Shown: positions 26,311-49,363 of the stretch, piece after piece
Layout: each line of letters begins with the position of its first letter
How positions within the stretch are numbered: the first letter of the stretch is position 1
Source of the DNA: Clostridia bacterium
GTDB lineage: Bacteria; Bacillota; Clostridia; Oscillospirales; QAKW01
Direction of reading: 5' to 3'
DNA length: 49,370 bases
Assembly: GCA_017482195.1 (NCBI GenBank)
Contig: JAFUNM010000051.1
Location: forward strand, 1-49,370
The notes under the pieces: model-generated
Databases searched by the model: none
Told to the model about the DNA's origin: nothing
Seen by the model: the letters and a program-made list of their open reading frames with translations, nothing else
Program-made: the position numbers and the translations under genes

Positions 26311-28635
26311 TTGAAGAGAAAGAATGTACTTTCCGCTTTACTGGCTGTGATGATGGTCATCTCTATGATGGCTGTTATTGCGATGCCCGCGGTGGCTGCA
26401 GGGGAGAAGACCGATCTGCCCTCGATTCAGACCGCAACCTCGTCGGATGCAGTGACCGGATACGCCCTGTCCTCGGTTGCCGATCTTATTTGGTGGGGAA
26501 ACAATCCGACTGCAGTGACGGCTGAGGATACGGTTTATTTGACAAAGGATATTGATATCGCCGCATACGGCGGTACCTTTGCCGATGATTTCACGTCCAT
26601 CCGCAGAACCTATGCCAGCCTGGACGGCCAGGGTCATACCATCTATGGATATAATGACGATCATGCGATCTTTGCCGACCGTTACTACGGCAAGACCATC
26701 AAAAACCTGATCATCGACGGTGCTTATGTACAGCCGGCGCAGGCAACGGACGGTATTTTAGTGCGGGCAATTGAGGCAGACTGTATTTTTGACAATGTTC
26801 ATTTCCGTAATACCACCTTCATTGCCTCCAATGGGGCAGTGACCGGCCTTACTTACGGTTATCACGGTCTCTTCGCCGGCTATATCAATAACCGAAGAAC
26901 CGACTTTGACATTACCTTCCGCAATTGCAGTGTGATTAATAGCTTGATGGACTGCAACGGCTGGAGCGATTGCGGTCTGTGGACCGGTGTTTACCGTTCC
27001 GGCGGTAAGATCGCTTTTGAAAACTGTGTGTCCCTCGACAGTAAGGTTATTAATTATACCGACGGTACTTATATGTCGCTTTACGGCCGTATGCGCGATA
27101 CATATGAAGTGGTGTTCGATAACGTGGGTGCCATCAATTGTGAGCTGATCGGTGCCACCGCCGCTCAGAGCATCACTTATATGACCGGCTATGAATTTTA
27201 TTACCTCAACAATCTTTTCTCGGTTGGCAATAAGACCTCCTCTCCCGGCAACAGTGCAACGGCAGATATGGATATCGTTTCTCTTACAACGGTAACGGCG
27301 GCCAACACTGTAGTTGAAAACTACCTGGTGGACGGCGGTGTTACCAATATTACCTATCATTCAAAAGGTTCTTATACTGCTGCTTCGGATCCTGCGAAGG
27401 TTGTTTCCGATCTTTCTCCAGCCGATGTTCTGGTTGCTATGAACACTGTTAAAGACCAGTGGGGTTACGATTACGACGATTGGGGCTTTGACGCAGAGGG
27501 GAACCCTGTTATTACAACCAATGTGGAAAACGCACAGCCCCTTCACAAGATCACCTTTAATCTCAACGATGCAGAGGGTACCGTGATTGCCCTGCCCACC
27601 GATATCAACGGCCATCTGGTGGCAGATGAAGGAACCTTTGCGATTTTGAAAGCCCACCACTGGGGTGTGGATGGTACGGTAGACTACGGCAATAACTATG
27701 CCTGGGAGACCGAGCCCTTCAGCGGAGATCTGGTGTTGAATGCGCATACCACCTCGGTGGAAGCCATCGACGGACGCCACCACAAGGTCACCTGCACCAT
27801 GGCAGGCTGCGAGGAGACCGCAGAGACGATCTCCTGTACCGGTGTGATCGATCCCGACGGCTATATCCCTGCCGATTACTTTAATTTGGCGCAGAACCAT
27901 TATAACTGTGCCGTTTGTACCAACAGCTGGTATACCGATGATGCCGATTCCGAAAAGCCGGCCATGCTGAGCATCGCATTCTCCAAGGATGCTTACGATG
28001 CCGGCGAAATGGTTGCTTTGGAGATCGGGGTCCATGAAAATACGAAGCTGTCCGGTTTCCAATTGGATCTTACCTACAACAGCGATCAGCTGACCTGGGT
28101 CGGCAAAGTCGATGCAGCTGATCATATTACCGCTGCAGCCAATGCCGACGATATTACCCGCACAGCCAGCGTTACCGCCTATACCACCGATACCAAGCCG
28201 GTCACGGCAGCAGGCACCTGGCTGACGGTATACTTCAAAACCTCCGAAAAACTGAACAGCGATGTGCTGACCGCCATTAAGGCCACCCTCACGGAAGCCA
28301 CTGTGGGCGGTAACGAGACCGATGTGACCACTCTGTTGGTCCTCGGCGCAGAAGATACAGCGATGATCTATGCAGGCTGCACTCCCGGCGATGTAAACCG
28401 CAGCGGTGTTGTGGATCTGTTGGATGTGGTGCTCACCATTGAAGCTCTGGACGGCACTCTGGATGCCGACGATGTGGCGATCTTCAGCGTAAGAGCTGCT
28501 AACGTAGACGGCGATGAGGAAAATGTCGTGAATACCAAAGATGTGACCTATCTGATCCGCCACCAACTGGGTTGGGCCGAGTATGCAACGCTCAATCAGG
28601 CGAAGCCCGGCACCGCCATTGCAGCGGCTGTTTGA
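26311..28635 (+). CDS. Secreted beta-helix-like protein with cohesin-like domain and dockerin (paralogue 1)
   Basis: 774 aa from TTG at 26311, set by AGGAGGT 8 nt upstream; an out-of-frame ATG at 26304 is too close to the site. A signal peptide ends near AVAAGEK. Residues about 45-400 have short beta-strand repeats rich in Asn and Gly (LDGQGHTIYGY, KNLIIDGAYV, FDNVHFRNTTF), as in right-handed beta-helix surface proteins. A Cys module near 500-540 has a CX4C pair and a CX2C pair. Residues about 549-689 resemble a cohesin (LEIGVHENTKLSGFQLDLTY). Residues about 691-755 form a dockerin with two Ca-binding repeats, GDVNRSGVVDLLD and NVDGDEENVVNTKD. No glycosidase catalytic motif is seen. Probable operon with the next gene, 47 bp away. 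Confidence 0.75.
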   Translation: MKRKNVLSALLAVMMVISMMAVIAMPAVAAGEKTDLPSIQTATSSDAVTGYALSSVADLIWWGNNPTAVTAEDTVYLTKDIDIAAYGGTFADDFTSIRRTYASLDGQGHTIYGYNDDHAIFADRYYGKTIKNLIIDGAYVQPAQATDGILVRAIEADCIFDNVHFRNTTFIASNGAVTGLTYGYHGLFAGYINNRRTDFDITFRNCSVINSLMDCNGWSDCGLWTGVYRSGGKIAFENCVSLDSKVINYTDGTYMSLYGRMRDTYEVVFDNVGAINCELIGATAAQSITYMTGYEFYYLNNLFSVGNKTSSPGNSATADMDIVSLTTVTAANTVVENYLVDGGVTNITYHSKGSYTAASDPAKVVSDLSPADVLVAMNTVKDQWGYDYDDWGFDAEGNPVITTNVENAQPLHKITFNLNDAEGTVIALPTDINGHLVADEGTFAILKAHHWGVDGTVDYGNNYAWETEPFSGDLVLNAHTTSVEAIDGRHHKVTCTMAGCEETAETISCTGVIDPDGYIPADYFNLAQNHYNCAVCTNSWYTDDADSEKPAMLSIAFSKDAYDAGEMVALEIGVHENTKLSGFQLDLTYNSDQLTWVGKVDAADHITAAANADDITRTASVTAYTTDTKPVTAAGTWLTVYFKTSEKLNSDVLTAIKATLTEATVGGNETDVTTLLVLGAEDTAMIYAGCTPGDVNRSGVVDLLDVVLTIEALDGTLDADDVAIFSVRAANVDGDEENVVNTKDVTYLIRHQLGWAEYATLNQAKPGTAIAAAV

Positions 28636-28682: not shown

Positions 28683-31013
28683 ATGAACAGAAAAAATGTG
28701 CTTTCTGCTCTGATGGCAGTAATGATGGTCCTCTCCATGCTGACCGCCGTTGCTTTGCCGGCTGTGGCAGAGTCTGAAGCGCCTGCAGATGCTGTTCCGG
28801 TAACAGACGTTACCAGCAATGCCAATGCAGTGAACTTCACCGTTTCAACGCTTTCGGATTTGCTTTACTTAGCAAATAACTATACTCGGTTTGTGGCCGG
28901 GGATACGGTTTATATGCTGAACGATTTAGATATTGCCACCTATGAAGGTGATTTTGCAGCGGACTTCCCCAGTATTGGTGTCGGCCAAGATGCAGGAAAG
29001 TTTTTTGCTGCCGATTTCGACGGCTTGAATCATACTATTTCGAATTATCGTGATAGCGTTGGTTTCTTTAAAGGTGTCGGCGGTGCGATCCGTAATGTCA
29101 ACTTTGAGAATTGCTCTACTACCGGAGGAGCAAACGAAGCAGTAATCGTTGCCTGTAACTCGGTTGCAAAGAATGGTGCTTTGACAATGGAAAATGTCAA
29201 GGCTATCAATTGCAGCGTGGTTTCCGAAACCAATGTGGCCAATGTTGGCATTGTGATTGGATATCAGAATGGCGGTACCAGAAATCTGACGGTTCGCAAT
29301 TGTGCGGTATTGAATTGTACGATAGATGTACTTGGGCCGGCAGAGGCAACGAATTACGGCTCCGGTCTATTTTGTGCCCGTTGGGCTGCCGGCGGCACCA
29401 TGATTTATGAAAATGTTTTGATTGCAAACTCTAAGTTGCATGCCTATGCGGATAGTGCCCAGGGCGGTGGCCTGTTGATTGGCGATATTGACCCGAAGGA
29501 AAATAATTCCGACTGTCTGTTTACGGCGAATAACATTGGTTTTATCAATGTTGAGATGAAAAATAAAGCCAGTGACTGTGCAGCGCTTATTACTACTTAC
29601 AGAGAGCGTGGCAACGCAAATGTCATTGGTAATTTCAGCAACATCTATGCCGCCAACGTGACTCGCGTTACTGCAGACGGTACTACAGATCTTACTACCT
29701 TGGAAATAATCAAGGATGCTGCCAGTGTTACTGAAACGAAAACTAATGTGCAGGTTGGGCTCAAGGACCTTAAGTTGAATGATATGCTCCTGAAGTTGAA
29801 TGAGAGCATTGATCATGACGATTGGGGCCATGGACTTGACGGGTTCCCCGTAATTGTTGATATTTTGAAGGGTCAGATGGCTCCTCATTCTATTACCATC
29901 CAATATGGTAACCACAAAACCGGTGATATTACCTCCGGTGTGAAATATGATTTTCTGACAGATATCTACGGCCATCTGATCGCCACGGAAGAAGAGCTTG
30001 CTAAACTGGCCACCATTCCTTCCGATGCGTTGCCCGGTTATGAGGGCGTAAGAGATTGGTCGACCGTTGTTTTTGAGTACGACCAAACCATCGGCACGAC
30101 GATCCATAATATTACTTACCTTAATTGGGATCCCGTTAACCATACGCATGATGTGTTCTGTATTGAGGGCTGTCCCGAGAATGCCACCGCAGTTCCCTGC
30201 AAGGTGGTTCTGACCGATTATAAGGCGGCTGATTATTTCAACCATGAGTATGCTGCCTTTGCTTGCGAAGAGTGTGCACACGCTTGGGATGAAGAGTACA
30301 CCGAAGGTGCCGTTCCTTCTCCCTTCTATGCGGCTTTCGATGCCGCCGATTATACGACCGGCGGTACTGTGAAGGTGAATGTGGGTGTGAAGGAGGATGC
30401 CACCATCAACGGCATCGTCGCAGAGGTCACCTATGACCCCACTGTTTTGACCTATGTTAACCCTGTTTTCGGAACCGATACTGCTACCGGCAACCAATAC
30501 CTCGGCATGGTTTCTGAGACCGGCAATACCACCGAAGACGGGAAAGCCATTCTGAAAGTGGTGGTCGCCATTCCTGATCGGAACGGCTCCAATGAAAGAG
30601 ATGCCTGGGTCACCCTGAACTTTACTGCAAACGGGACCACATCTGTAAAGCTTGCAGAGGTAGGCCTGAAGGTTACGGATTACACCCGTTGGGAAGAGGG
30701 CACACAGCTGGATAACGATGTGTTGTCGGTCGTTTCCGACGATCTGGCCTATATCCTGCCCAATGATTTGAACCTGCCCACCTTTACTCCCGGTGATGTA
30801 AACGGCAACGGAAAGGTCAATGTACATGATGTAATCCTGCTGAAGCAGGCTCTTGATCTGACTGAGACGCTTGAGACTGCACAGCTGTATGCTGCCAACG
30901 TAAACGGTGATGCTGCCGTCAGCGTGAATGATGCGACTGCCATTCTGCGTTGGACTGTCGATAAGACTGTGGAACTTTGCAAATCTTACATAAGTCCCAC
31001 TATTGCACAGTAA
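28683..31013 (+). CDS. Secreted beta-helix-like protein with cohesin-like domain and dockerin (paralogue 2)
   Basis: 776 aa with an AGGAGG site before the ATG. The signal peptide and mature start closely resemble paralogue 1 (NRKNVLSALMAVMMV). Domain order is the same: beta-helix-like part (LNHTISNYRD, IRNVNFENCS), Cys module (FCIEGCPENA with CEEC later), cohesin-like domain at about 546-699 (VNVGVKEDATINGIVAEVTY) and dockerin at about 702-765. The first dockerin repeat GDVNGNGKVNVHD has a near-complete Ca-binding set; the second, NVNGDAAVSVND, is weaker. The two genes probably arose by tandem duplication. Function unknown; a surface adhesin or assembly part is likely. Confidence 0.75.
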   Translation: MNRKNVLSALMAVMMVLSMLTAVALPAVAESEAPADAVPVTDVTSNANAVNFTVSTLSDLLYLANNYTRFVAGDTVYMLNDLDIATYEGDFAADFPSIGVGQDAGKFFAADFDGLNHTISNYRDSVGFFKGVGGAIRNVNFENCSTTGGANEAVIVACNSVAKNGALTMENVKAINCSVVSETNVANVGIVIGYQNGGTRNLTVRNCAVLNCTIDVLGPAEATNYGSGLFCARWAAGGTMIYENVLIANSKLHAYADSAQGGGLLIGDIDPKENNSDCLFTANNIGFINVEMKNKASDCAALITTYRERGNANVIGNFSNIYAANVTRVTADGTTDLTTLEIIKDAASVTETKTNVQVGLKDLKLNDMLLKLNESIDHDDWGHGLDGFPVIVDILKGQMAPHSITIQYGNHKTGDITSGVKYDFLTDIYGHLIATEEELAKLATIPSDALPGYEGVRDWSTVVFEYDQTIGTTIHNITYLNWDPVNHTHDVFCIEGCPENATAVPCKVVLTDYKAADYFNHEYAAFACEECAHAWDEEYTEGAVPSPFYAAFDAADYTTGGTVKVNVGVKEDATINGIVAEVTYDPTVLTYVNPVFGTDTATGNQYLGMVSETGNTTEDGKAILKVVVAIPDRNGSNERDAWVTLNFTANGTTSVKLAEVGLKVTDYTRWEEGTQLDNDVLSVVSDDLAYILPNDLNLPTFTPGDVNGNGKVNVHDVILLKQALDLTETLETAQLYAANVNGDAAVSVNDATAILRWTVDKTVELCKSYISPTIAQ

Positions 31014-33680: not shown

Positions 33681-34889
33681 TTATTCAGCAGCGACAGCCT
33701 TTCTTTTCTTGAAGTAGAATACGCCAACCACAGCGGTTGCCGCAACAAGTACAACAGCGCCGCCGATCACAAACCAGATCCATACGGGACTCTTATCTTT
33801 ATCGTTACCCAGGTCCTGCTCTACTACATTGAGAGAACCGTCCTGATCCTTTTCCACCACTACAGAGCCGATCTCTTTGCCTTCCTCGTCCTTGAGAATG
33901 ACTTCGGCCTTATCGCCGGGGTTGACAGGCTCTTCCTCTTTATACTCGCCTTCATAGAGATTGGCGTTGCCCTCTTCGTCTACATGAGCGAATTGGTTGC
34001 CGGCCACGATCCAGTTGCCGGTGGGGGCATTGGAAGGTGTATTTTCCGTTCCGGGATCGGCAGTACTGCCGGGAGCCGTCGCGGCGTCGTTGTCGGCACC
34101 GTTCTCGGGAGTTGCAGCGGTGTCATTGTTATCGGGGGTTGCGGAGGGGGCGTCCTCGGTGACAGAGCCGCCGGGCAGGGGACTTACCGAATCATCGGGA
34201 TTGGTGGAACCGCTGTCGGGGGTCGTTGGCGTATTATTGTCGGTGCTATTGTCCGGAGTGGTGTTATTGCCGCTGTCGGGAGTGGTGTTGTTCCCATTGT
34301 CCGGCGTGGTGTTATTGCCGCTGTCAGGGGTGGTGTTGCTGTCGCCGGAGGGATTGTTGTCCTCTCCGGCAGTGTTGTCGTCAGCAGGAGGGTTTTCAGG
34401 CACCGGCAGGGAAGGATAGGTGATTGAGGCCGCGTTGATGGCGGGGGTGACCTTCTTGAGATCCTCATTAAAGAATTCCTGATGGGCCACGGTGAGGCCG
34501 GTGGTGTTTCCGGAGGTGGGCTCACCGATCACTTCAAATTCCAATACAAATAGTTCTGCATCGCCGATCAGAGCCTGGCTGGCGCTGGCTGCCAGAGCAA
34601 CAATGGCGCTCTTGCCCTGATAGGTGGCGTTTTTGTTGAGGGCAATGCTGCCGGCAATACCGCTGCCCGCGCTGCCGGAGAGCAGCTTCAGGCAGGTGTT
34701 ATCGTAGGTGGCGATCACCCGGAAGGAGGCGCAGCTGGGGGCGCCGGTCACCTTGCCGACATAGGTCACTTTATCGCCGATCTCTGCCTCATTCACAGAG
34801 GGAGTAAGTTCCAGCTTCATGCTCTCGGCCGCAAAAACGGCGGGAGTCAGTAAAAGCAATGCCAAAACGATGCAAAGAATACGTTTCAT
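33681..34889 (-). CDS. Membrane-anchored cohesin-like protein (putative anchoring scaffoldin)
   Basis: 402 aa. Signal peptide at 1-21. Residues about 24-160 resemble a cohesin-like domain (KLELTPSVNEAEIGDKVTY, FRVIATYDNTCLKLL, LFVLEFEVIGE). Then comes a long Asn/Thr/Pro/Asp-rich linker (about 163-290) with a period-8 repeat, and a small beta domain (about 292-360). A transmembrane helix at about 369-391 is followed by KKRK. No LPXTG sorting motif is seen. The layout suggests one cohesin held out from the cell by a linker and fixed in the membrane, which could dock dockerin proteins. Heads the isomerase operon; has its own promoter. Confidence 0.75.
   Translation of the reverse strand: MKRILCIVLALLLLTPAVFAAESMKLELTPSVNEAEIGDKVTYVGKVTGAPSCASFRVIATYDNTCLKLLSGSAGSGIAGSIALNKNATYQGKSAIVALAASASQALIGDAELFVLEFEVIGEPTSGNTTGLTVAHQEFFNEDLKKVTPAINAASITYPSLPVPENPPADDNTAGEDNNPSGDSNTTPDSGNNTTPDNGNNTTPDSGNNTTPDNSTDNNTPTTPDSGSTNPDDSVSPLPGGSVTEDAPSATPDNNDTAATPENGADNDAATAPGSTADPGTENTPSNAPTGNWIVAGNQFAHVDEEGNANLYEGEYKEEEPVNPGDKAEVILKDEEGKEIGSVVVEKDQDGSLNVVEQDLGNDKDKSPVWIWFVIGGAVVLVAATAVVGVFYFKKRKAVAAE
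34242..34337 (-). repeat. 24-bp tandem repeat in the linker of the cohesin gene
   Basis: Four copies of a 24-bp unit encode the octapeptide NTTPDSGN or NTTPDNGN (residues about 185-216). Slippage could change copy number and linker length. Confidence 0.75.
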
Positions 34890-36426: not shown

Positions 36427-36479
36427 CTGCATTTTTGCAATTATCTCGCTATGCGGGGAAATAATCGCAAAAGGTGCAG
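36427..36479 (+). promoter_or_regulatory. Long imperfect hairpin between xpt and the BMP gene
   Basis: Arms with several paired blocks (CTGCA/TGCAG, TTTTTGC/GCAAAAG, ATTAT/ATAAT, CTCGC/GCGGG) enclose a TAT loop, with small bulges. No T run follows, so a plain terminator is unlikely. It may control or stabilise the transporter transcript. Confidence 0.45.
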
Positions 36480-36516
36480 TTATTATAAAGAAAAAATTTT
36501 TCGGAGGGAAAAAGAA

Positions 36517-37701
36517 ATGAAAAGAATCTTAGCTGTATTGCTGGCTGTATTGATGCTGTTTACTATGGCATCCTGCGGCGGCAACAACGAAGCCGACGAA
36601 CTGAAGGTTGGTTTCATCTTCTTGCACGATGAGAACTCTACTTATGACAAGAACTTCATCGATGCTGCAGTTGAAGCTTGCGAGAACATGGGCGTGACCA
36701 TGGTTCAGAAGACCCAGATCCCCGAATCCAACGCTTGCTATGATGCGGCTGTTGAATTGATCGAGTCCGATGGTTGCGATATCATCTTCGCCGACAGCTT
36801 CGGTCATGAGAACTTCCTGCTCAAGGCTGCTGCCGAGTATCCCGATGTGCAGTTCTGCCACGCTACCGGTACTCAGGCTCATACTGCCGGGCTGGACAAC
36901 TTCCACAACGCCTTCGCACACATCTATCAGGGCCGTTACCTGGCAGGTGTTGTTGCCGGCATGAAACTGAATGAGATGATCGAGGCCGGTACCATCACTG
37001 CTGATAAGGCTAAGATGGGTTATGTCGGCGCATTTACCTTTGCTGAGGTTATGTCCGGTTATACCTCTTTCTATCTGGGCGCGAAGTCTGTATGTCCCAG
37101 CGTGACCATGGACGTTAAGTTCACCGGTTCCTGGTATGATGAGCAGCTTGAGAAAGAAGCAGCTCAGGCTCTGATCGCCGGCGGCTGTGTGCTGATCAGC
37201 CAGCATGCCGACTCCATGGGCGCTCCCACCGCTTGCGAGACTGCAGGTGTTCCCAACGTTTCTTATAACGGTTCCACCGCCGCTGCTTGCCCCGAAACCT
37301 TCCTGATCTCCTCTCGCATCAACTGGGTTCCCTACTTCGAGTATATGATCACCCAGGTGAAGAACGGCGCTGCCATTGATGTAGACTGGGCAGGCGATCT
37401 GGAGAACGGCTCTGTTGCCCTCACCGATCTGGGCACCGCTGTTGCAGCTGGTACCGCTGAGAAGCTCGCTGAGGTTGAAGCCGGTCTGAAGGACGGCACC
37501 GTCAAGGTCTTTGATACCGCAACCTTCACTGTAAACGGCGAGAAGATCGACAGCTACACCGCTGATGTTGATACCGACGATAAGTTCACTCCCGACACCG
37601 AGGCTGTTGCCAACGGTATCTTCGAGGAATCCAAGCATCGTTCTGCTCCTTATTTCGATGTTAGAATCGATGGCATTACCCTGCTGGACGAAAAATATTA
37701 A
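36517..37701 (+). CDS. BMP-family ABC transporter substrate-binding lipoprotein
   Basis: 394 aa from ATG 36517 (GGAGGG site). Lipobox FTMASC gives Cys20. The mature protein is a BMP/PnrA-type periplasmic-binding fold, with LKVGFIFLHDENSTYDKNF at its start and IYQGRYLAGVVAGM and GYVGAF in the middle. Members bind nucleosides or purines. It heads the ABC genes that follow and is separated from them by a strong hairpin, so it is likely made in excess over the membrane parts. Confidence 0.9.
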   Translation: MKRILAVLLAVLMLFTMASCGGNNEADELKVGFIFLHDENSTYDKNFIDAAVEACENMGVTMVQKTQIPESNACYDAAVELIESDGCDIIFADSFGHENFLLKAAAEYPDVQFCHATGTQAHTAGLDNFHNAFAHIYQGRYLAGVVAGMKLNEMIEAGTITADKAKMGYVGAFTFAEVMSGYTSFYLGAKSVCPSVTMDVKFTGSWYDEQLEKEAAQALIAGGCVLISQHADSMGAPTACETAGVPNVSYNGSTAAACPETFLISSRINWVPYFEYMITQVKNGAAIDVDWAGDLENGSVALTDLGTAVAAGTAEKLAEVEAGLKDGTVKVFDTATFTVNGEKIDSYTADVDTDDKFTPDTEAVANGIFEESKHRSAPYFDVRIDGITLLDEKY

Positions 37702-37718
37702 TTTAGTTTAATACCCGG

Positions 37719-37755
37719 CTAAGGCGGGGCCCAAACGCGCCCCGCCTTAGTTTTT
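37719..37755 (+). terminator. Terminator/attenuator between the binding-protein and ABC genes
   Basis: A 12-bp GC-rich stem (37719-37730 with 37739-37750) followed by TTTTT. Partial read-through would explain the extra level of binding protein. Confidence 0.85.
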
Positions 37756-37836
37756 CGTTTTTATAAAGATCATTGAAAAATGCGCTGCAGGACGGCAGCG
37801 CGCTTTTGAGTGTTTTTTAAAAGGAGGGCGCAAGCG

Positions 37837-39372
37837 GTGGCGAATCAAGCAGCTATCGAATTGAAAAACATCACCAAGACCTTTGGCAGCGTGGTGGCAA
37901 ACAAGAATGTGAACCTGACCGCCAACCGGGGGGAGATCCTCTCCATCCTGGGCGAAAACGGCAGCGGTAAGACCACGCTGATGAACATGATCTCCGGTAT
38001 TTATTTTCCCGATGAGGGTGAGATCTTCATCGATGGTCAACCGGCGGTCATTGCTTCCCCCAAGGATGCTTTTGATTATAAGATCGGCATGATCCATCAG
38101 CATTTCAAGCTGGTGGATGTGTTCAGCGCGGCAGAGAATATCATTCTCGGCCTGAAGGAAAAAGAGGGCTATAATCTCAAAGCTGCCGAGGCGCGGATCA
38201 GCGCCATCTGCGAGCAATACGGCTTTGAGTTGGACCCCAAAAAGAAGATCTATACGATGGCGGTTTCCGAAAAGCAGACCGTTGAGATCATCAAGGTATT
38301 GTATCGGGGTGCCGATATTCTGATCCTGGATGAGCCTACCGCGGTGCTGACGCCGCAGGAGACCCAAAAGCTTTTCGCTGTTTTGCGCAAGATGCGGGAT
38401 GACGGAAAGTCTATTATCATCATCACCCATAAGCTCCATGAGGTGCTTTCCCTTTCCGACCGGGTGGCTGTATTACGCAAGGGTGAATATGTGGGAACGG
38501 TAGAGACCGCAAAGACCAATGAATCGGAGCTGACCGAAATGATGGTAGGCAAAAAGATCTCCCTCAATATTGAGCGGAGCGAGCCGAAGGATCCTCAGGT
38601 CCGACTGGAGGTCCACCATGTGGATTGCACCAATCGAGAGGGGTCCTTGGTGTTGGATGATGTCTCCTTCCATGTAAACGCCGGAGAGATCCTGGGCGTT
38701 GCCGGCATCGCCGGTTCCGGCCAGCGGGAGCTTTTGGAGGTCATTGCCGGCCTGCAGAAGACCGATAGCGGCGCAGTTCTTTATCATAATCCCAAGACCG
38801 GCAATGTGGACCTTCTGCAGGGCAAGACCCCACTGCAGATCCGCGAGCTGGGCGTTCGCCTTTCCTTTGTCCCCGAAGATCGTCTGGGCATGGGCCTGGT
38901 GGGCAATATGGATATTACCGATAATATGATGCTTCGCAGCTACCGCAAGGGTCATAGCGCTTTTCTGGAGCGCAGAGCGCCCAAGGATCTGGCTGAGCAT
39001 ATCATCGATGAGCTGGAGGTGGTTACCCCCGGCATTACTACCCCGGTCCGCCGTCTTTCCGGCGGTAATGTGCAGAAGGTATTGGTGGGGCGTGAGATCG
39101 CTGCTGCACCCACTGTGCTGATGGCAGCCTACCCGGTGCGGGGCTTGGATATCAACTCTTCTTATACTATTTATAACCTGCTTAATCAGCAGAAGGAAAA
39201 GGGCGTTGCTGTTATCTTTGTCGGTGAAGATCTGGACGTTCTTCTGGAGCTTTGCGACCGTATTCTTGTCATCGGCGGCGGTAAGGTCACCGGTATTGTG
39301 GACGGGCGCACCGCTACCAAAGAGCAGGTTGGTTTGTTAATGACTAAAACCGAAGGAGGTGCGGAGCAATGA
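37837..39372 (+). CDS. ABC transporter ATPase (nucleoside type, two nucleotide-binding domains)
   Basis: 511 aa from GTG 37837, set by AGGAGGG upstream. First domain: Walker A GENGSGKT (39-46), an unusual signature region AVSEKQT, Walker B ILDEPTAVL. Second domain: Walker A-like GIAGSGQREL, signature LSGGNVQ, and Walker B-like LMAAYPVRGLD that lacks the usual Asp-Glu. Such asymmetry is normal for the NupO/RbsA class. It energises the import of nucleosides with the two permeases that follow. The 3' end overlaps the first permease by 4 bp. Confidence 0.92.
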   Translation: MANQAAIELKNITKTFGSVVANKNVNLTANRGEILSILGENGSGKTTLMNMISGIYFPDEGEIFIDGQPAVIASPKDAFDYKIGMIHQHFKLVDVFSAAENIILGLKEKEGYNLKAAEARISAICEQYGFELDPKKKIYTMAVSEKQTVEIIKVLYRGADILILDEPTAVLTPQETQKLFAVLRKMRDDGKSIIIITHKLHEVLSLSDRVAVLRKGEYVGTVETAKTNESELTEMMVGKKISLNIERSEPKDPQVRLEVHHVDCTNREGSLVLDDVSFHVNAGEILGVAGIAGSGQRELLEVIAGLQKTDSGAVLYHNPKTGNVDLLQGKTPLQIRELGVRLSFVPEDRLGMGLVGNMDITDNMMLRSYRKGHSAFLERRAPKDLAEHIIDELEVVTPGITTPVRRLSGGNVQKVLVGREIAAAPTVLMAAYPVRGLDINSSYTIYNLLNQQKEKGVAVIFVGEDLDVLLELCDRILVIGGGKVTGIVDGRTATKEQVGLLMTKTEGGAEQ

Positions 39373-40478
39373 GCCAGAATACAAAAAAGCATCATGAGCC
39401 GCTGATTCATATCGTCAAGCGGGATGATATGGTGTGGTGGCAGGCCTGGGGCATTCGCCTGGCGGCGATCGTGCTCGGTGTTTTGCTGATCGGTATTGTT
39501 TCTGCCGTGCTCACCGGGGAGAGCTTCTTTGAAGTTTATGGCATTATGTTCCGCGGCGTTTTCGGCCGCATCTTTGAGGGCAAGACCAGCATGCTCTGGA
39601 AATTCGGGCAGGATACGGTCATTTTACTCTGTCTTGGCCTGGCGGTTGCGCCGGCTTTCAAGATGAAGTTTTGGAACTGCGGCGCCGAAGGGCAGGCGCT
39701 GATCGGCGGTCTGGCAGCAATGTTTTGCATGATCCAGTTCGGCGGCAAGCTGCCCGAATGGATGTTGGTACCCCTGGTGATCGTATCCAGTATCATCGCC
39801 GGTGCCATCTGGGGCTTGATTCCTGCCATCTTCAAGGCACGCTGGAATACCAATGAGACTCTCTTCACCCTGATGATGAACTATGTTGCTACCCAAATCA
39901 TTGCTTATTATGTTTATATCGTCGGCGGTGGCTCCAACGTGATCAATCCGGTGGAGACCGGCGCGCTTCCGGTGATCGGAAAATCTCAGTATTTATTAAA
40001 CATTCTTATCGTGGCCGCGCTGACCGTTGCCATGCATGTTTATCTTAAATACAGCAAGCAGGGCTATGAGATCACGGTTGTGGGCGAAAGCCAGAATACG
40101 GCTCGGTATATCGGCATCAATGTGAAAAAGGTTGTTTTACGCACCATGATGCTCTCCGGCGCGGTCTGCGGTATTGCCGGGATGCTTTTGGTGGCCGGTA
40201 CCGACCATTCGATCAATAAAGATACCGTTGGCGGTCAGGGCTTTACTGCCATTATGGTTGCCTGGCTGGGTCAGTTTAATCCCTTTGTTATGGTGCTGAT
40301 GTCTGCCCTGATCATCTTTTTGAGAACAGGAGCCGCTAAGGTCGCCGACTCCAATATGCTGAACAGCTCCTTTGCGGATATTTCCGTTGGTTTGGTCATT
40401 TTGATGTTGGTCGGCTGCGAGTTCTTTATTCAGTATTCCGTACGGCTGCGCCGCGCGAAGAAGGGGGTAGAAGCATGA
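39369..40478 (+). CDS. ABC transporter permease (nucleoside type, first)
   Basis: 369 aa with about ten membrane helices; segments FKMKFWNCGAEGQALIGGL and FTAIMVAWLGQFNPF are typical of the branched-chain/ribose-type permease family. It overlaps the ATPase gene and the next permease by 4 bp each (ATGA), so the operon is translationally coupled. Partner of the next permease in a heterodimer. Confidence 0.9.
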   Translation: MSQNTKKHHEPLIHIVKRDDMVWWQAWGIRLAAIVLGVLLIGIVSAVLTGESFFEVYGIMFRGVFGRIFEGKTSMLWKFGQDTVILLCLGLAVAPAFKMKFWNCGAEGQALIGGLAAMFCMIQFGGKLPEWMLVPLVIVSSIIAGAIWGLIPAIFKARWNTNETLFTLMMNYVATQIIAYYVYIVGGGSNVINPVETGALPVIGKSQYLLNILIVAALTVAMHVYLKYSKQGYEITVVGESQNTARYIGINVKKVVLRTMMLSGAVCGIAGMLLVAGTDHSINKDTVGGQGFTAIMVAWLGQFNPFVMVLMSALIIFLRTGAAKVADSNMLNSSFADISVGLVILMLVGCEFFIQYSVRLRRAKKGVEA

Positions 40479-41464
40479 TCGTTGAATTTATCAGCAGAGC
40501 GATCCTTTTGAGCATTCCGCTCCTTTATGGATCGGTCGGTGAGATCCTTACCGAAAAATCCGGCCATCTCAACCTGGGCATCCCGGGCATTATGTATAGC
40601 GGTGCGATCGGCGGTGTGATCGGTGCGTTCCTGTATGAGAACGCCTGCGGCAACGATCTTGCTAATATGAATCCGTTTCTTGCGATCCTGATCCCTTTGA
40701 TCTGCTCGATCCTTTTCTCGGTCTTTATGGGTCTGATTTATAGCTTTATGACCGTCACTCTGCGGGCGAACCAGAATGTAACCGGCCTTGCCATTACCAC
40801 CTTCGGTATCGGTCTGGGCAACTTCTTCGGCGGTTCGCTCATCAAATTGGTGGATAGCGATCTGCCCTCTATTGCCCTCACTAAAACCAGTAAGTTCTTT
40901 AAGGCAGAGCTTCCCTTTGCCGATGATCTGGGCTGGTTTGGCGAGATCTTTTTGTCCCATGACTTTTTGGCCTATCTGGCCATCGCCATCGCGCTGGCTG
41001 CGTCTTTTGTTTTGAGCAAAACGCGTATCGGCCTGAATCTGCGCTCGGTGGGTGAGAACCCCGCTACCGCCGATGCAGCGGGCATCAATGTGACCCGCTA
41101 TAAGTATTTGGCGACTTGTATCGGCAGTGCTGTTGCGGGCCTGGGCGGTCTGCAGTATGTGATGGCCTATGCTGACGGTGTTTGGTCCAACAACGCCTTC
41201 GGCGACCGCGGCTGGATGGCTATTGCTCTGGTTATTTTTGCCCTCTGGAAGCCTTCAATGGCCATTGTCGGCTCCTTCCTGTTTGGTGCCCTTTGCAATG
41301 CAAACAACTATGTGCAGGGTCTGGGGGCTGAAACCCAGGAGCTCTTCAAAATGCTGCCCTATGTGGTCACCATCGTGGTGCTTATTATCACCAGCATGAG
41401 AAAGAAGAGAGAGCATCAGCCGCCCGAAAGTCTGGGCTTACCCTATTTCCGCGAGGAACGATAA
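40475..41464 (+). CDS. ABC transporter permease (nucleoside type, second)
   Basis: 329 aa. The first part LTEKSGHLNLGIPGIMYSGA and SVGENPATADAAGINV match the second permease of nucleoside ABC systems. A cytoplasmic tail follows the last helix. The final gene of the transporter operon; its stop is followed by the promoter and hairpin of the next unit. Confidence 0.9.
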   Translation: MIVEFISRAILLSIPLLYGSVGEILTEKSGHLNLGIPGIMYSGAIGGVIGAFLYENACGNDLANMNPFLAILIPLICSILFSVFMGLIYSFMTVTLRANQNVTGLAITTFGIGLGNFFGGSLIKLVDSDLPSIALTKTSKFFKAELPFADDLGWFGEIFLSHDFLAYLAIAIALAASFVLSKTRIGLNLRSVGENPATADAAGINVTRYKYLATCIGSAVAGLGGLQYVMAYADGVWSNNAFGDRGWMAIALVIFALWKPSMAIVGSFLFGALCNANNYVQGLGAETQELFKMLPYVVTIVVLIITSMRKKREHQPPESLGLPYFREER

Positions 41465-44642: not shown

Positions 44643-44671
44643 TTGAAAAAAGAAAATTTTTATAGTATAAT
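44643..44671 (+). promoter_or_regulatory. Upstream promoter of the dockerin-EEP operon
   Basis: TTGAAA (44643-44648), 17-bp spacer, TATAAT (44666-44671), directly after the amidohydrolase stop. Confidence 0.65.
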
Positions 44672-44779: not shown

Positions 44780-46156
44780 ATGAAAAAAGTACTTGCAGCG
44801 CTCCTTTCGATCCTATTGACCGTGACCCTGATGATGGGCGCGGTACTGCCCGCTTCGGCAGCCACCGTTGCCGGTGATGTCAATGGTGACGGCAGAGCCG
44901 ACACTTTGGACGCCCTGATCGCCCTTCGGGTGATCTCCGGCCAGACCTATACCGGGAAGCTGGAAAGCCGGGGTCTTTTTGTCAACGGCGATGCCTTGGC
45001 CGATACCGCGGATCTGGTATTGCTTTTGCGTAACGCCTCTTCCGATTGGGAGGTGGAACTGACCGCTCCTGATGATGCCGATACCGTTGCCAAGCAGGAG
45101 CTGTCCGGTTTTTATTACATTAAGAATCTGGCTGTGCGGATCATTTCTCAAAACCTTTTGCACAGCACCGGCAACGGTGCTCCGGCCTCCCGCTCCAATG
45201 CAAATCGTATTGTACGGATGACCAATTTGATGGAAGCCTATGATCCCGATATCTGCGGTCTGCAGGAATACCGTTGGACTCATTGGTATACCGCCTTTGA
45301 AGAGAATATCTTCCCCATTACCGGAGAGGATCCCGCTTATGAAGCGTATATTGCCTGCCGGGTGGATCTTTCCCTGAATAAGATCGAGGGCGCCGGTACT
45401 TCTGCCGAGACTCCGCTCTATACCGAGGAAAAATCAGCGATCTTCTGGAAAAACGACCGTTTTGACCTTTGCGTTGATGCTGAGGGCAATGAGATCAAGG
45501 GCCAGTTCTGGTTCTCTGAGACACCTGATATGCCTTCTCCCTATTTCGGCGCTCCGGAACTTGTGCCGGAAAACGGTGTTTACACAGACGGCCGCCAGCG
45601 GCAGTGCATCTGGGTCAAGCTCCATGATAATTATACCGGTGAGGAGTTTTATTATTATAACGTTCACGGCCCCAATGCGGCTGATACGGAGGATGCGGTA
45701 GAGCTTTCCTTGATTCCGGCGATGCAATTGCTGGATGCAAGAGTCAAGACGTATCTTGAAAAATACGGGGATGCTCCTGTTGTTGTGGGCGGAGATTTCA
45801 ATATGAACTATTGCCTTGCTTGCGATCTGCCCGCTTATAGTGTGTTGACAGAGAGCGGTTATGACGATATGGCCGCCGTATTCAATAATTATCAGGGCAC
45901 CTTCCCCCGCTTTGGCAAGAATGTTACGGAAGAGGGCGTTGTGACCGCCCGTGTGGATTTCCACTTCAACTACGATGATTCGGCGACCCCCATTTCCTAT
46001 AAGGTCTTGGAGGAGGTCTTTGACGAGAATAATGAGATTTTGGTGACAGATCTGCCCTTCGGCGGTTATAATACAGCGGCCGAAACAGACTATGATTATT
46101 TCTACGGCTATTGGGCCTCCGACCATCTCGGCATTTGCAGTGAATTTATTTTTTAA
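44780..46156 (+). CDS. Secreted dockerin-EEP (endonuclease/exonuclease/phosphatase) protein 1
   Basis: 458 aa from ATG 44780. Signal peptide ending near ASA-ATVAG. A dockerin follows at once: GDVNGDGRADTLD (32-44) has a complete Ca-binding set, the second repeat VNGDALADTAD is degenerate. Residues about 118-458 are an EEP-fold domain with N125, E163 (GLQEY), H296 (NVHGP), D339 and N341 (GGDFN) and D448-H449 (SDH), i.e. all family catalytic residues. Members cleave phosphodiesters or phosphomonoesters in DNA, lipids or sugars. The target is unknown. Probable cargo of a cohesin. Confidence 0.82.
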   Translation: MKKVLAALLSILLTVTLMMGAVLPASAATVAGDVNGDGRADTLDALIALRVISGQTYTGKLESRGLFVNGDALADTADLVLLLRNASSDWEVELTAPDDADTVAKQELSGFYYIKNLAVRIISQNLLHSTGNGAPASRSNANRIVRMTNLMEAYDPDICGLQEYRWTHWYTAFEENIFPITGEDPAYEAYIACRVDLSLNKIEGAGTSAETPLYTEEKSAIFWKNDRFDLCVDAEGNEIKGQFWFSETPDMPSPYFGAPELVPENGVYTDGRQRQCIWVKLHDNYTGEEFYYYNVHGPNAADTEDAVELSLIPAMQLLDARVKTYLEKYGDAPVVVGGDFNMNYCLACDLPAYSVLTESGYDDMAAVFNNYQGTFPRFGKNVTEEGVVTARVDFHFNYDDSATPISYKVLEEVFDENNEILVTDLPFGGYNTAAETDYDYFYGYWASDHLGICSEFIF

Positions 46157-46166
46157 GGGTGAAAAA

Positions 46167-47387
46167 ATGAAACGCATTGTTCTTACATTTACCTGCATCG
46201 TACTGCTCCTGTCCATGGCGGTGTTCCCCTCTTCCGCAGAGGTGGTCACCGGAGACGTCAACGGGGACGGAGCGGTCGATTCTCTGGACGCTTTAGTAGC
46301 CATTCGTCTGTTGGCAGACCTGACCTATACCGGCAAGGTGCAGAAAGAGGCCCTTTTTGTCAGCGGAGACGGAACGGTGGATATGGCCGATGCAGCCTTA
46401 CTGCTGCGTAAAGCCGCCGATCCTACGGTGGAGCTTTTCGGCATCCCCGCCGACCGAACGGTAGCGGAGACCGAGGACGGCACTCTCTATTATGCTGAAA
46501 ACAAGCTTAAGCTGATGTGCCTGAATGTACGTCACAGCTATGGTGAAGCCCCCAATACCCGTCCGGTACGGATCACCCGTATCCAGAAACTGCTGGCTGA
46601 GCAGTTGCCGGCAGTGATCGGTTTTCAGGAGGTTCGTACCTGGTGGATGAATGAGGACGCGGCACAAAGCAGTCAACCCGGCTTGCCGGATATTATGCCC
46701 ACCGAGAATTATCAGGGATATGTCTATTACCGTAACGAGCAGTATCTGACCGATACGGCCGGTGATCTTGACGGCAGAGAAGGCTGTGCCATTTTCTATG
46801 ATACTTCGGTGGTAACGTTGCTGCAAAAGGGTGTGTATTGGCTGTCTGAGACCCCGAATACAGAGTCCAAACCGGAGCTTTCCGGCACCTATCGAATCGC
46901 AGTCTGGGGCAAATTCCGAATCAATGCTACCGGCGAGGAATTTTATTTCAATACGGCACATATCGATACGGTGGATGAGATCCAGCCCTACCAATATAAT
47001 GTGATGATCGAGCAGTCCAAGCTCATTGCTCAGACCTACGGCGATGCACCGATCGTCTATTGCGGCGACTATAACTTCTGTAAGGAAAATGACCCTTCGG
47101 AGGGCTATGCAGCGCTACAGGCCAGCGGTGTGACCGATGTGGCCCTGGCCTTGGGAGATACCACCGGAACCTTCCCCAACTACGGTCAAAATACCGGAAC
47201 TGCCAATCCCCGCGGTGATTATTTCTGCATTACCGGAGATGTTCTTCCCGCCTCCTATTGGGTCGAAACAAGAGTTTGGGATCCCGAAACCGAAGAGGCC
47301 TTCTATCTGGAAGGAGAAACGTATAAAAATGAGTACGGGTATTATTCCGATCATTCGCCCATATTCATGGAAGCGGTTTTATATTAA
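46167..47387 (+). CDS. Secreted dockerin-EEP protein 2
   Basis: 406 aa from ATG 46167, 10 nt after the stop of protein 1, with AAGGGTG as ribosome-binding site. Same layout: signal peptide (to about 24), dockerin at 28-85 with two good repeats (GDVNGDGAVDSLD, VSGDGTVDMAD), then an EEP domain with N120, E155 (GFQEV), H265 (TAHID), D301 and N303 (CGDYN) and D395-H396 (SDHSP). It is clearly a paralogue of protein 1, but the EEP parts differ considerably, so targets may differ. Confidence 0.83.
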   Translation: MKRIVLTFTCIVLLLSMAVFPSSAEVVTGDVNGDGAVDSLDALVAIRLLADLTYTGKVQKEALFVSGDGTVDMADAALLLRKAADPTVELFGIPADRTVAETEDGTLYYAENKLKLMCLNVRHSYGEAPNTRPVRITRIQKLLAEQLPAVIGFQEVRTWWMNEDAAQSSQPGLPDIMPTENYQGYVYYRNEQYLTDTAGDLDGREGCAIFYDTSVVTLLQKGVYWLSETPNTESKPELSGTYRIAVWGKFRINATGEEFYFNTAHIDTVDEIQPYQYNVMIEQSKLIAQTYGDAPIVYCGDYNFCKENDPSEGYAALQASGVTDVALALGDTTGTFPNYGQNTGTANPRGDYFCITGDVLPASYWVETRVWDPETEEAFYLEGETYKNEYGYYSDHSPIFMEAVLY

Positions 47388-47396
47388 TAAGAAAAT

Positions 47397-47432
47397 AAAT
47401 ATCCCCCCGCATATCATAGCGGGGGGATATTT
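47397..47432 (+). terminator. Bidirectional terminator with GC-rich stem
   Basis: A 14-bp stem (47397-47410 with 47419-47432) closing the EEP operon and the convergent DtxR gene. Nearly the same stem is used at 3283-3305. Confidence 0.88.
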
Positions 47433-47446
47433 ATTATGGTTTTATA

Positions 47447-47842: not shown

Positions 47843-47871
47843 AGTATACCATGTTCCCGATTAAAATTCAA
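47843..47871 (-). promoter_or_regulatory. DtxR-gene promoter with extended -10
   Basis: Minus strand: TTGAAT (47871-47866), 17-bp spacer, TATACT (47848-47843) preceded by TGG. The -35 box overlaps the last codons of the glycosidase gene, and the start codon is only about 12 nt past the -10 box. Confidence 0.65.
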
Positions 47872-49363
47872 GTTTTAAAACAACGCCCGGTTCGGAGGTG
47901 TCGTTCCCGTTCTGTGCAGAGGTACCGATCGTTTCGATCAGCGCACCGGGAATGGTAAGGACACCTTTTTCAAAGGAGACCTGCTCGGTGACGTCGTAGG
48001 CGGTATTACCGGCAAGATCCTGCATCAGGATCCGCGTCACTGTGCTTAAAGAGGTCTTGAGGGTCAGGCTCTCATAGCAGCCGAAGATGCCGATCGTTTC
48101 GGCATTGCCGCTTTCAGCTGTCACCTTGCAGCGGGGCAGAAAATAGGTGCGGTCAGCCGTTCTGCCCAGGGTGGCAATGGAGAACGCACCGTTGGGATTG
48201 CGGGCGCTTACGATGTAGGGAACATTTCCGCTTTCATCGGGGGTCACATCTGCAAGAGCGCAGTTGCGGGCGATGCGGGCGGGGGCGGTTTTGGTAAGGA
48301 GTTCTCCCTCGATGCAGCCGATAATAAAGGGCTTGCGGAACCACCAATCCTCCAGCTCAATGTCTCTGTTTTCAAAGCGCCAGGTGTCGGTAAGGTCTTG
48401 GCTGTCCACCGTCATTCGGCTGCCGTCCATGGCAAAGGCGGGAGCCATGCGGTGCCAGCGGGCGGCACGGAGAACTTCCGCCATTTTGGACTTGAGATCC
48501 CGATGGAATTGGGGGAAGGAAACATCGGGAACGCCGTTGGTAAAGGCCCCGTGATAGGGGTGGCGCATGATCCCCATGGAAAAGCCGCCGGCTGCGGCGG
48601 TGTAGGCCTCGTCCTCGCAGTTGAGCAGACCCATATTCCCTTCTGTGGGGGCGGGGGTGTCGGCAAATTCCTTGATCTTTTGCAGGGTCATGGGGATGGA
48701 CATAATGGCCGGCACATCATAGGTGCGGTAGGCATCGCCGTAGGGTACGGCGGCGGGACATTTGGCATGCTCAATAATGAGATCGGGGGCATATTTGCGC
48801 CCCAGATCCGTCAGCATCCGGCGGAAAGCCAGATCGGTGTCCTTTTTACCCCAATCTACCTTCCAGTAGGCAAAGCCGGCCTCTTGGGCGGCCATCAGCA
48901 TATCCTTCCAGTATTCCTCGGGAGTACGGTCCCTGCAAAAACGTTCCGATTCCTGGGCGCAGACCCAGCCGCCTAAGCCCTTCCAGCCTAAGGCTTTCAT
49001 CCGGTCGGTGAGGTTTTTCAGCGCCTCGGCCGGGGAGGCGGCATTCTTGCAGGCCTCGGGGAATTTCTCTTCGTTCAGGAGCAAGCTGCCGTAGTAGGTG
49101 GGATCGTCCTGCAGGGGAACATCCCAGCTGTCGTCCATAATAAAAAGCAGATCCTTTCGGGCCTCTTCGTAAAAATAGGCCCAGCCGTAGGGCTTTTCCT
49201 TGGCAAACATTCCCTTTTCGCCGATAATGGCACGCTGGCCTTCGGGCTTGCCGTCGCAGGTGGCATAAAGCTGAGTCTGCCAGGTGCAGTAATAGTCGGG
49301 GGAGGGATTGGGAACAGAAGGGATCAGATCCATATTCAGTTTTTTCAAATAATTCATATTCAT
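47861..49363 (-). CDS. Glycoside hydrolase, GH27/GH36-like TIM barrel (start possibly outside the window)
   Basis: 500 aa as read from ATG 49363. Residues about 70-330 form a TIM barrel with FIMDDSWDVP (DDSW at 77-80) and YWKVDWG, where D170 is the likely nucleophile, as in alpha-galactosidases. A beta-rich C-terminal domain follows. No signal peptide is seen, so it may act inside the cell. The upstream frame is open to the window edge, so the true start may lie further out. Substrate probably an alpha-galactoside or similar sugar; not certain. Confidence 0.72.
   Translation of the reverse strand: MNMNYLKKLNMDLIPSVPNPSPDYYCTWQTQLYATCDGKPEGQRAIIGEKGMFAKEKPYGWAYFYEEARKDLLFIMDDSWDVPLQDDPTYYGSLLLNEEKFPEACKNAASPAEALKNLTDRMKALGWKGLGGWVCAQESERFCRDRTPEEYWKDMLMAAQEAGFAYWKVDWGKKDTDLAFRRMLTDLGRKYAPDLIIEHAKCPAAVPYGDAYRTYDVPAIMSIPMTLQKIKEFADTPAPTEGNMGLLNCEDEAYTAAAGGFSMGIMRHPYHGAFTNGVPDVSFPQFHRDLKSKMAEVLRAARWHRMAPAFAMDGSRMTVDSQDLTDTWRFENRDIELEDWWFRKPFIIGCIEGELLTKTAPARIARNCALADVTPDESGNVPYIVSARNPNGAFSIATLGRTADRTYFLPRCKVTAESGNAETIGIFGCYESLTLKTSLSTVTRILMQDLAGNTAYDVTEQVSFEKGVLTIPGALIETIGTSAQNGNDTSEPGVVLKLEF

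Follow-up and report, generated by a model that had tools for sequence, protein, structure and literature searches.

Tandem dockerin-bearing EEP proteins of the BT3783 group, putative surface-docked phosphoesterases, in a Clostridia bacterium

We analyzed a 49,370-nt stretch of DNA from a Clostridia bacterium (hereafter, the window) and identified two adjacent genes, ORF1 and ORF2, each encoding a signal peptide, a dockerin or dockerin-like domain and an EEP hydrolase domain with an intact active site. By sequence comparison and alignment of predicted models, both proteins are assigned to the BT3783 ('GxFWLSETP') EEP group, ahead of nucleases and sphingomyelinases. We give about an even chance to the interpretation that they are exported EEP phosphoesterases, held by their dockerins at the cell surface, that most likely dephosphorylate the sugars of glycans or strip phosphodiester substituents from them. 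Gene structure, domain content, intactness of catalytic residues and subfamily were computed for the pair, as were the cohesins of its genome (G000), a 1.2-Mb assembly of 62% completeness that was searched piecewise.

The ORF1-ORF2 gene pair

The initial annotation of the window had described tandem dockerin-EEP genes, and this arrangement was borne out. ORF1 (458 aa) and ORF2 (406 aa) are located on the same strand with a 10-nt gap between them. The mechanical call for ORF2 at 46092 is 25 codons too early, and its start was taken at 46167; an RBS-like AAGG is present 5' of the inner ATG in both genes. Signal peptides were read from the sequence. The pair and its candidate expression signals are as follows:

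44643..44671 (+), putative sigma-70-like promoter TTGAAA-17-TATAAT upstream of the ORF1-ORF2 unit, from a consensus scan only (11/12 matches)
44780..46156 (+), ORF1: signal peptide, dockerin-like domain (about 44864-45040), EEP domain (about 45128-46153); Pfam, alignments, AlphaFold2 model, VIA-align
46167..47387 (+), ORF2: signal peptide, dockerin (46251-46409), EEP domain (46521-47354); Pfam, whole-genome HMM search, AlphaFold2 model, VIA-align
47394..47435 (+), strong terminator-like hairpin after ORF2 with a 17-pair stem, found on both strands

The two genes likely form one operon. Their products share 33% identity (E 3e-55) over the full length including the dockerin, and because the similarity spans both proteins entirely, the pair probably originated from an old duplication of a gene that already possessed the dockerin. 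A 500-aa protein encoded at 47861-49363 (-) is transcribed toward the pair and has no Pfam, NCBIfam or PDB sequence match.

Active site, fold and subfamily of the EEP domains

The EEP fold proposed for both proteins was confirmed by Pfam and by models that match solved EEP structures with Z about 28-32. The Exo_endo_phos family (PF03372) matches ORF2 at 4.7e-9 and ORF1 at 2.2e-6. The catalytic set (N120, E155, H265, D301-x-N303, D351 and S394-D395-H396 in ORF2 numbering) is invariant in an alignment of ORF1, ORF2 and 53 relatives; no catalytic residue is lost, as the initial annotation had also maintained. Both proteins combine the fold with the Asn, Glu, His, Asp-x-Asn, Asp and Asp-His residues that characterize the EEP superfamily. 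Group features beyond the metal site include conserved Arg189, Glu205 and Arg243 (ORF2) and the FWLSETP motif, whose longer form GxFWLSETP reads GVYWLSETP and GQFWFSETP in the pair.

A single-sequence PDB search with ORF2 identified 4c1r (BT3783; 6e-13), 3mpr, 3g6s and 3l1w; beyond these it retrieved only chains that are, carry or resemble dockerins, and no EEP structure from a different family was matched at E 1 or better. ORF1 gave weaker matches, among EEP structures only to 3mpr and 4c1r. A family profile matched the same four structures at 1e-69 to 1e-95, followed by nocturnin (8e-20), bacterial sphingomyelinases (1e-9 to 1e-4) and DNase I (3e-4 to 8e-4), a gap to other families that is sharpened by Bacteroidetes members of the profile possibly close to BT3783. 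The AlphaFold2 models of the EEP domains are good, with pLDDT mostly above 90 for ORF2 and lower values in some ORF1 loops. Aligned by VIA-align, the ORF2 model gives Z 32 to 4c1r, 3mpr, 3g6s and 3l1w, ahead of nocturnin (28), TDP2 (27), bacterial sphingomyelinase (23) and DNase I (22); the ORF1 model gives Z 28-30 to the four structures and 26 to the next ones. CNOT6L also ranks behind the BT3783 group. The initial annotation held that the sequence chooses no target, which proved too weak, as the BT3783 sugar-phosphatase group is favored over nucleases and sphingomyelinases. In this mostly uncharacterized group, mannosyl-6-phosphatase activity of BT3783 is known here from the PDB title of 4c1r. 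Given the match to the BT3783 group in sequence and modeled fold, together with the group features, a phosphorylated or phosphodiester-substituted sugar is the likeliest predicted substrate.

The EEP fold is, however, common to DNase I, TDP2 and CNOT6L, and ORF2 weakly matches a model of the MnuA membrane nuclease (NF045851; 24 bits). In addition, a PnrA-like nucleoside-type ABC transporter operon (36451-41464) and a phosphoribosyltransferase are located 4-9 kb away. The pair might thus encode surface-docked nucleases that digest DNA or RNA outside the cell to supply nucleosides or phosphate for uptake. We regard this as unlikely: the MnuA score is far below the NCBIfam cut-off of 185 bits, DNase I lies far behind the BT3783 group in both fold and profile score, and the transporter sits in an operon of its own. 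Phospholipases or sphingomyelinases acting on membranes also have the fold in common with the pair (Z about 22-23 to bacterial sphingomyelinases), but they fall well behind the BT3783 group by both measures, which makes such a function very improbable.

The nearest relative of the pair within the genome is the protein L054:9336-10301 (contig C47), which groups with ORF1 and ORF2 in the tree with an SH-aLRT support of 93 that is not decisive. It has a lipobox-like N-terminus, and several EEP proteins of the genus have a lipobox-like start followed by an acidic or Ser-rich linker. Since this relative and several other EEP proteins of the genome and genus read as lipoproteins, the dockerin is probably an alternative to lipoprotein anchoring at the surface for the same enzyme type, as judged from their N-termini.

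Dockerins and potential cohesin partners

The dockerin annotated directly after the signal peptide was recovered in both proteins. Dockerin_1 (PF00404) matches ORF2 at 1.6e-10 (41.4 bits), above the Pfam gathering cut-off of 22.9, and ORF1 at 5e-4 (20.6 bits), just below it; the ORF1 domain is therefore named dockerin-like, yet it aligns end to end with the ORF2 dockerin. Type I dockerins possess two calcium loops with ligands at positions 1, 3, 5, 9 and 12. Loop 1 is canonical and complete in both proteins, and loop 2 is short of one ligand, having Phe instead of Asp at the first ligand position (FVNGDALADTAD and FVSGDGTVDMAD). The dockerin parts of the AlphaFold2 models are of low confidence (pLDDT mostly <60). 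The degenerate loop 2 and the ORF1 score under the cut-off would fit relics or structural modules that have no cohesin partner, an explanation of the docking alone that holds whatever the substrate and overlaps other alternatives. It appears doubtful in view of the canonical loop 1, the recurrence of dockerin-EEP fusions in the genus and seven cohesin matches in G000.

Three candidate partners are encoded in the window:

26311..28635 (+), tandem relative of the following protein: cohesin-like domain, weak dockerin (28384-28563)
28683..31013 (+), exported repeat protein, possible adaptor: cohesin (30342-30653), then C-terminal dockerin (30789-30941), both above the Pfam cut-off
33681..34889 (-), putative surface anchor: signal peptide, one cohesin (34419-34799), long Pro/Asn/Thr-rich linker, C-terminal TM helix

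The cohesin of the putative anchor scores 5.4e-7, above the Pfam cut-off, and its TM helix was read from the sequence. In the 26311-28635 protein, the dockerin scores 17.3 bits, below the Pfam cut-off, and the cohesin was found by a home-made profile only. This protein and its neighbor contain 'DGQGHTIYGY'-type repeats and combine a cohesin with a dockerin in one chain, and they could polymerize or act as adaptors. Elsewhere in the genome, L062:4014-5708 has a cohesin followed by SLH-like repeats (assigned by eye), and L054:6404-8437 (C47) combines a cohesin and a dockerin in a single chain. The genome thus encodes cohesin-bearing proteins, some of them with a putative surface anchor (the TM-anchored and SLH-like carriers), as is characteristic of cellulosomes. 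Two giant repeat proteins, L063:6467-14104 (2545 aa) and L063:14398-19914 (at least 1830 aa), contain up to three cohesin-like domains; they are possible scaffoldins, and no dockerin was found in them. Neither the candidate cohesin partners in the window and genome nor the EEP expansion in the genus had been mentioned in the initial annotation.

For the pair we infer cohesin binding, surface location and substrate as follows. ORF1 and ORF2 would be phosphoesterases of the BT3783 EEP group that depend on metal and are exported, and their N-terminal dockerins would plug them into cohesin proteins at the cell surface, so that phosphate esters would be hydrolyzed there. The reaction would take a phosphate or a phosphodiester-linked substituent off the sugars of gut-lumen glycans (yeast, bacterial, plant or host), which would free phosphate and expose the sugar to other enzymes.

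Distribution of dockerin-EEP proteins

The search for the N-terminal architecture in other genomes, proposed with the initial annotation, was run and identified it in three of the six genus genomes. A dockerin directly precedes the EEP domain in ORF1, ORF2 and L055 (G000), in L072 (G001), and in L193, L194 and L195 (G002). All of these except ORF1 and ORF2 belong to another EEP subfamily (tree split support 100); because two subfamilies carry an N-terminal dockerin, either the domains were fused on two or more occasions or the fusion was shuffled. The version with a full-length dockerin and an FWLSETP-type EEP domain was found only in the genome of the window among 394 genomes of the order and 391 of the class, where scoring covered the best 4-5 candidates of each genome, so that weaker cases may have escaped. 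Named genomes gave no match in a single-sequence scan, and at least 80 distant EEP loci among the matches listed in a profile scan include none with a dockerin beside the EEP domain. One lead, in G490, was rejected as a triple EEP protein without a dockerin. Three EEP domains in one chain were observed in L224:2818-5397, from a genome of the same class.

The view that N-terminal dockerins on EEP enzymes are unusual compared with C-terminal ones was too strong. Ruminococcus flavefaciens has proteins with N-terminal dockerins, whose cohesin binding is no weaker than that of C-terminal dockerins (PMC5301203, PMC12484212); since they are known and functional there, the position alone is not novel. 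C-terminal dockerins on EEP enzymes also occur within the same order (G014 and G038, and also genus members). The R. flavefaciens proteins with N-terminal or internal dockerins (PMC5301203; RfGH16_21, PMC12484212) resemble the pair in that the dockerin is not C-terminal. For them cohesin binding was shown and the cited example is a glycoside hydrolase, whereas ORF1 and ORF2 are phosphoesterases with predicted binding. An open-access search found no literature on enzymes that combine a dockerin with an EEP domain, and a search on BT3783 and cd09083 no usable paper. The solved BT3783-group chains (4c1r, 3mpr, also 3g6s and 3l1w) share with the pair the catalytic residues, the FWLSETP motif, a fold similarity of Z 28-32 and the best sequence match, but no dockerin is seen in them, whereas the EEP domains of ORF1 and ORF2 follow a dockerin and belong to a multi-copy family.

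The pair also resembles the clostridial GlcNAc-PDase group, secreted EEP phosphoesterases that act on sugars (PMC10704324), as a sugar substrate is predicted for ORF1 and ORF2. Clostridial EEP proteins with such activity have been described, and this group clusters near cd09083/cd09084 (PMC10704324); moreover, other dockerin-EEP proteins of the genus match the model of the PGAP2IP-type EEP, the eukaryotic member of the group. It could be speculated that ORF1 and ORF2 are likewise phosphodiesterases that remove phosphocholine or phosphoethanolamine from sugars. We find this distinctly unlikely, because the pair falls into a different EEP subfamily from the PGAP2IP-type dockerin-EEP proteins, at the split with support 100. 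The GlcNAc-PDase group itself is probably another EEP subfamily, and its members are reported to consist of a signal peptide and a single domain (PMC10704324), whereas ORF1 and ORF2 carry a dockerin.

Dockerin cargo and EEP expansion in the genus

The recognized enzyme cargo of the cohesin-dockerin system in G000 is phosphoesterases. The third dockerin-EEP protein of the genome is L055:3339-7742. Two tandem dockerin proteins (L061:1269-4844 and L061:4955-8380), whose dockerins were identified by our own profile, contain lectin-like, calcineurin-like phosphoesterase and BspA-type LRR domains, and a further dockerin protein (L060) has no Pfam match. No dockerin-borne glycosidase or plant-polysaccharide hydrolase was seen among the dockerin proteins found in this 62% complete genome. 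Cargo in relatives includes rhamnosidase, GH95-type and GH97 proteins, as well as GDSL, CotH, GDPD, nucleotide-pyrophosphatase and glucosaminidase proteins; for example, a dockerin is attached to a GDPD phosphodiesterase in L177:4600-7692 (G003) and to a type I phosphodiesterase/nucleotide pyrophosphatase in L205:1564-4479 (G005). The amylosome and the mucinolysome (PMC12997984) likewise display non-cellulolytic enzymes by cohesin-dockerin interactions in gut Clostridia, but their cargo is mainly glycosidases and peptidases (PMC12997984), in contrast to the phosphoesterases recognized in G000.

The six genomes of the genus contain 16, 5, 16, 10, 13 and 29 matches to PF03372, compared with 0-9 (median 1) in 53 other genomes of the order (Mann-Whitney p 2e-5, not corrected for phylogeny). 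The individual parts of the system are all known; what is noteworthy is the combination of this EEP expansion with a cohesin-dockerin system that carries phosphoesterase cargo. A tentative and rather improbable extension is that the genus possesses a cohesin-dockerin complex with phosphoesterases as main enzymatic cargo (EEP and calcineurin-like in G000, and in relatives also of the GDPD and nucleotide-pyrophosphatase types). Supplied by the EEP expansion, such a complex would harvest phosphate or unmask phosphorylated glycans in the ruminant gut. The known cohesin-dockerin complexes deal with cellulose, starch and mucin. Confirmation of the role proposed for the pair would add the removal of phosphoesters by surface-displayed enzymes to this list, and it would raise a substrate question that can be tested for an enzyme family of uncultured gut Clostridia that is large, multi-copy and essentially uncharacterized.

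An array of EEP domains is present in the close relative G005 (C40:80845-99160; loci L064 and L065), where about 19 matches are arranged in tandem over ~18 kb and some proteins are fused double-EEP proteins. Giant cohesin-dockerin repeat proteins are encoded on this contig, 20-50 kb upstream of the array.
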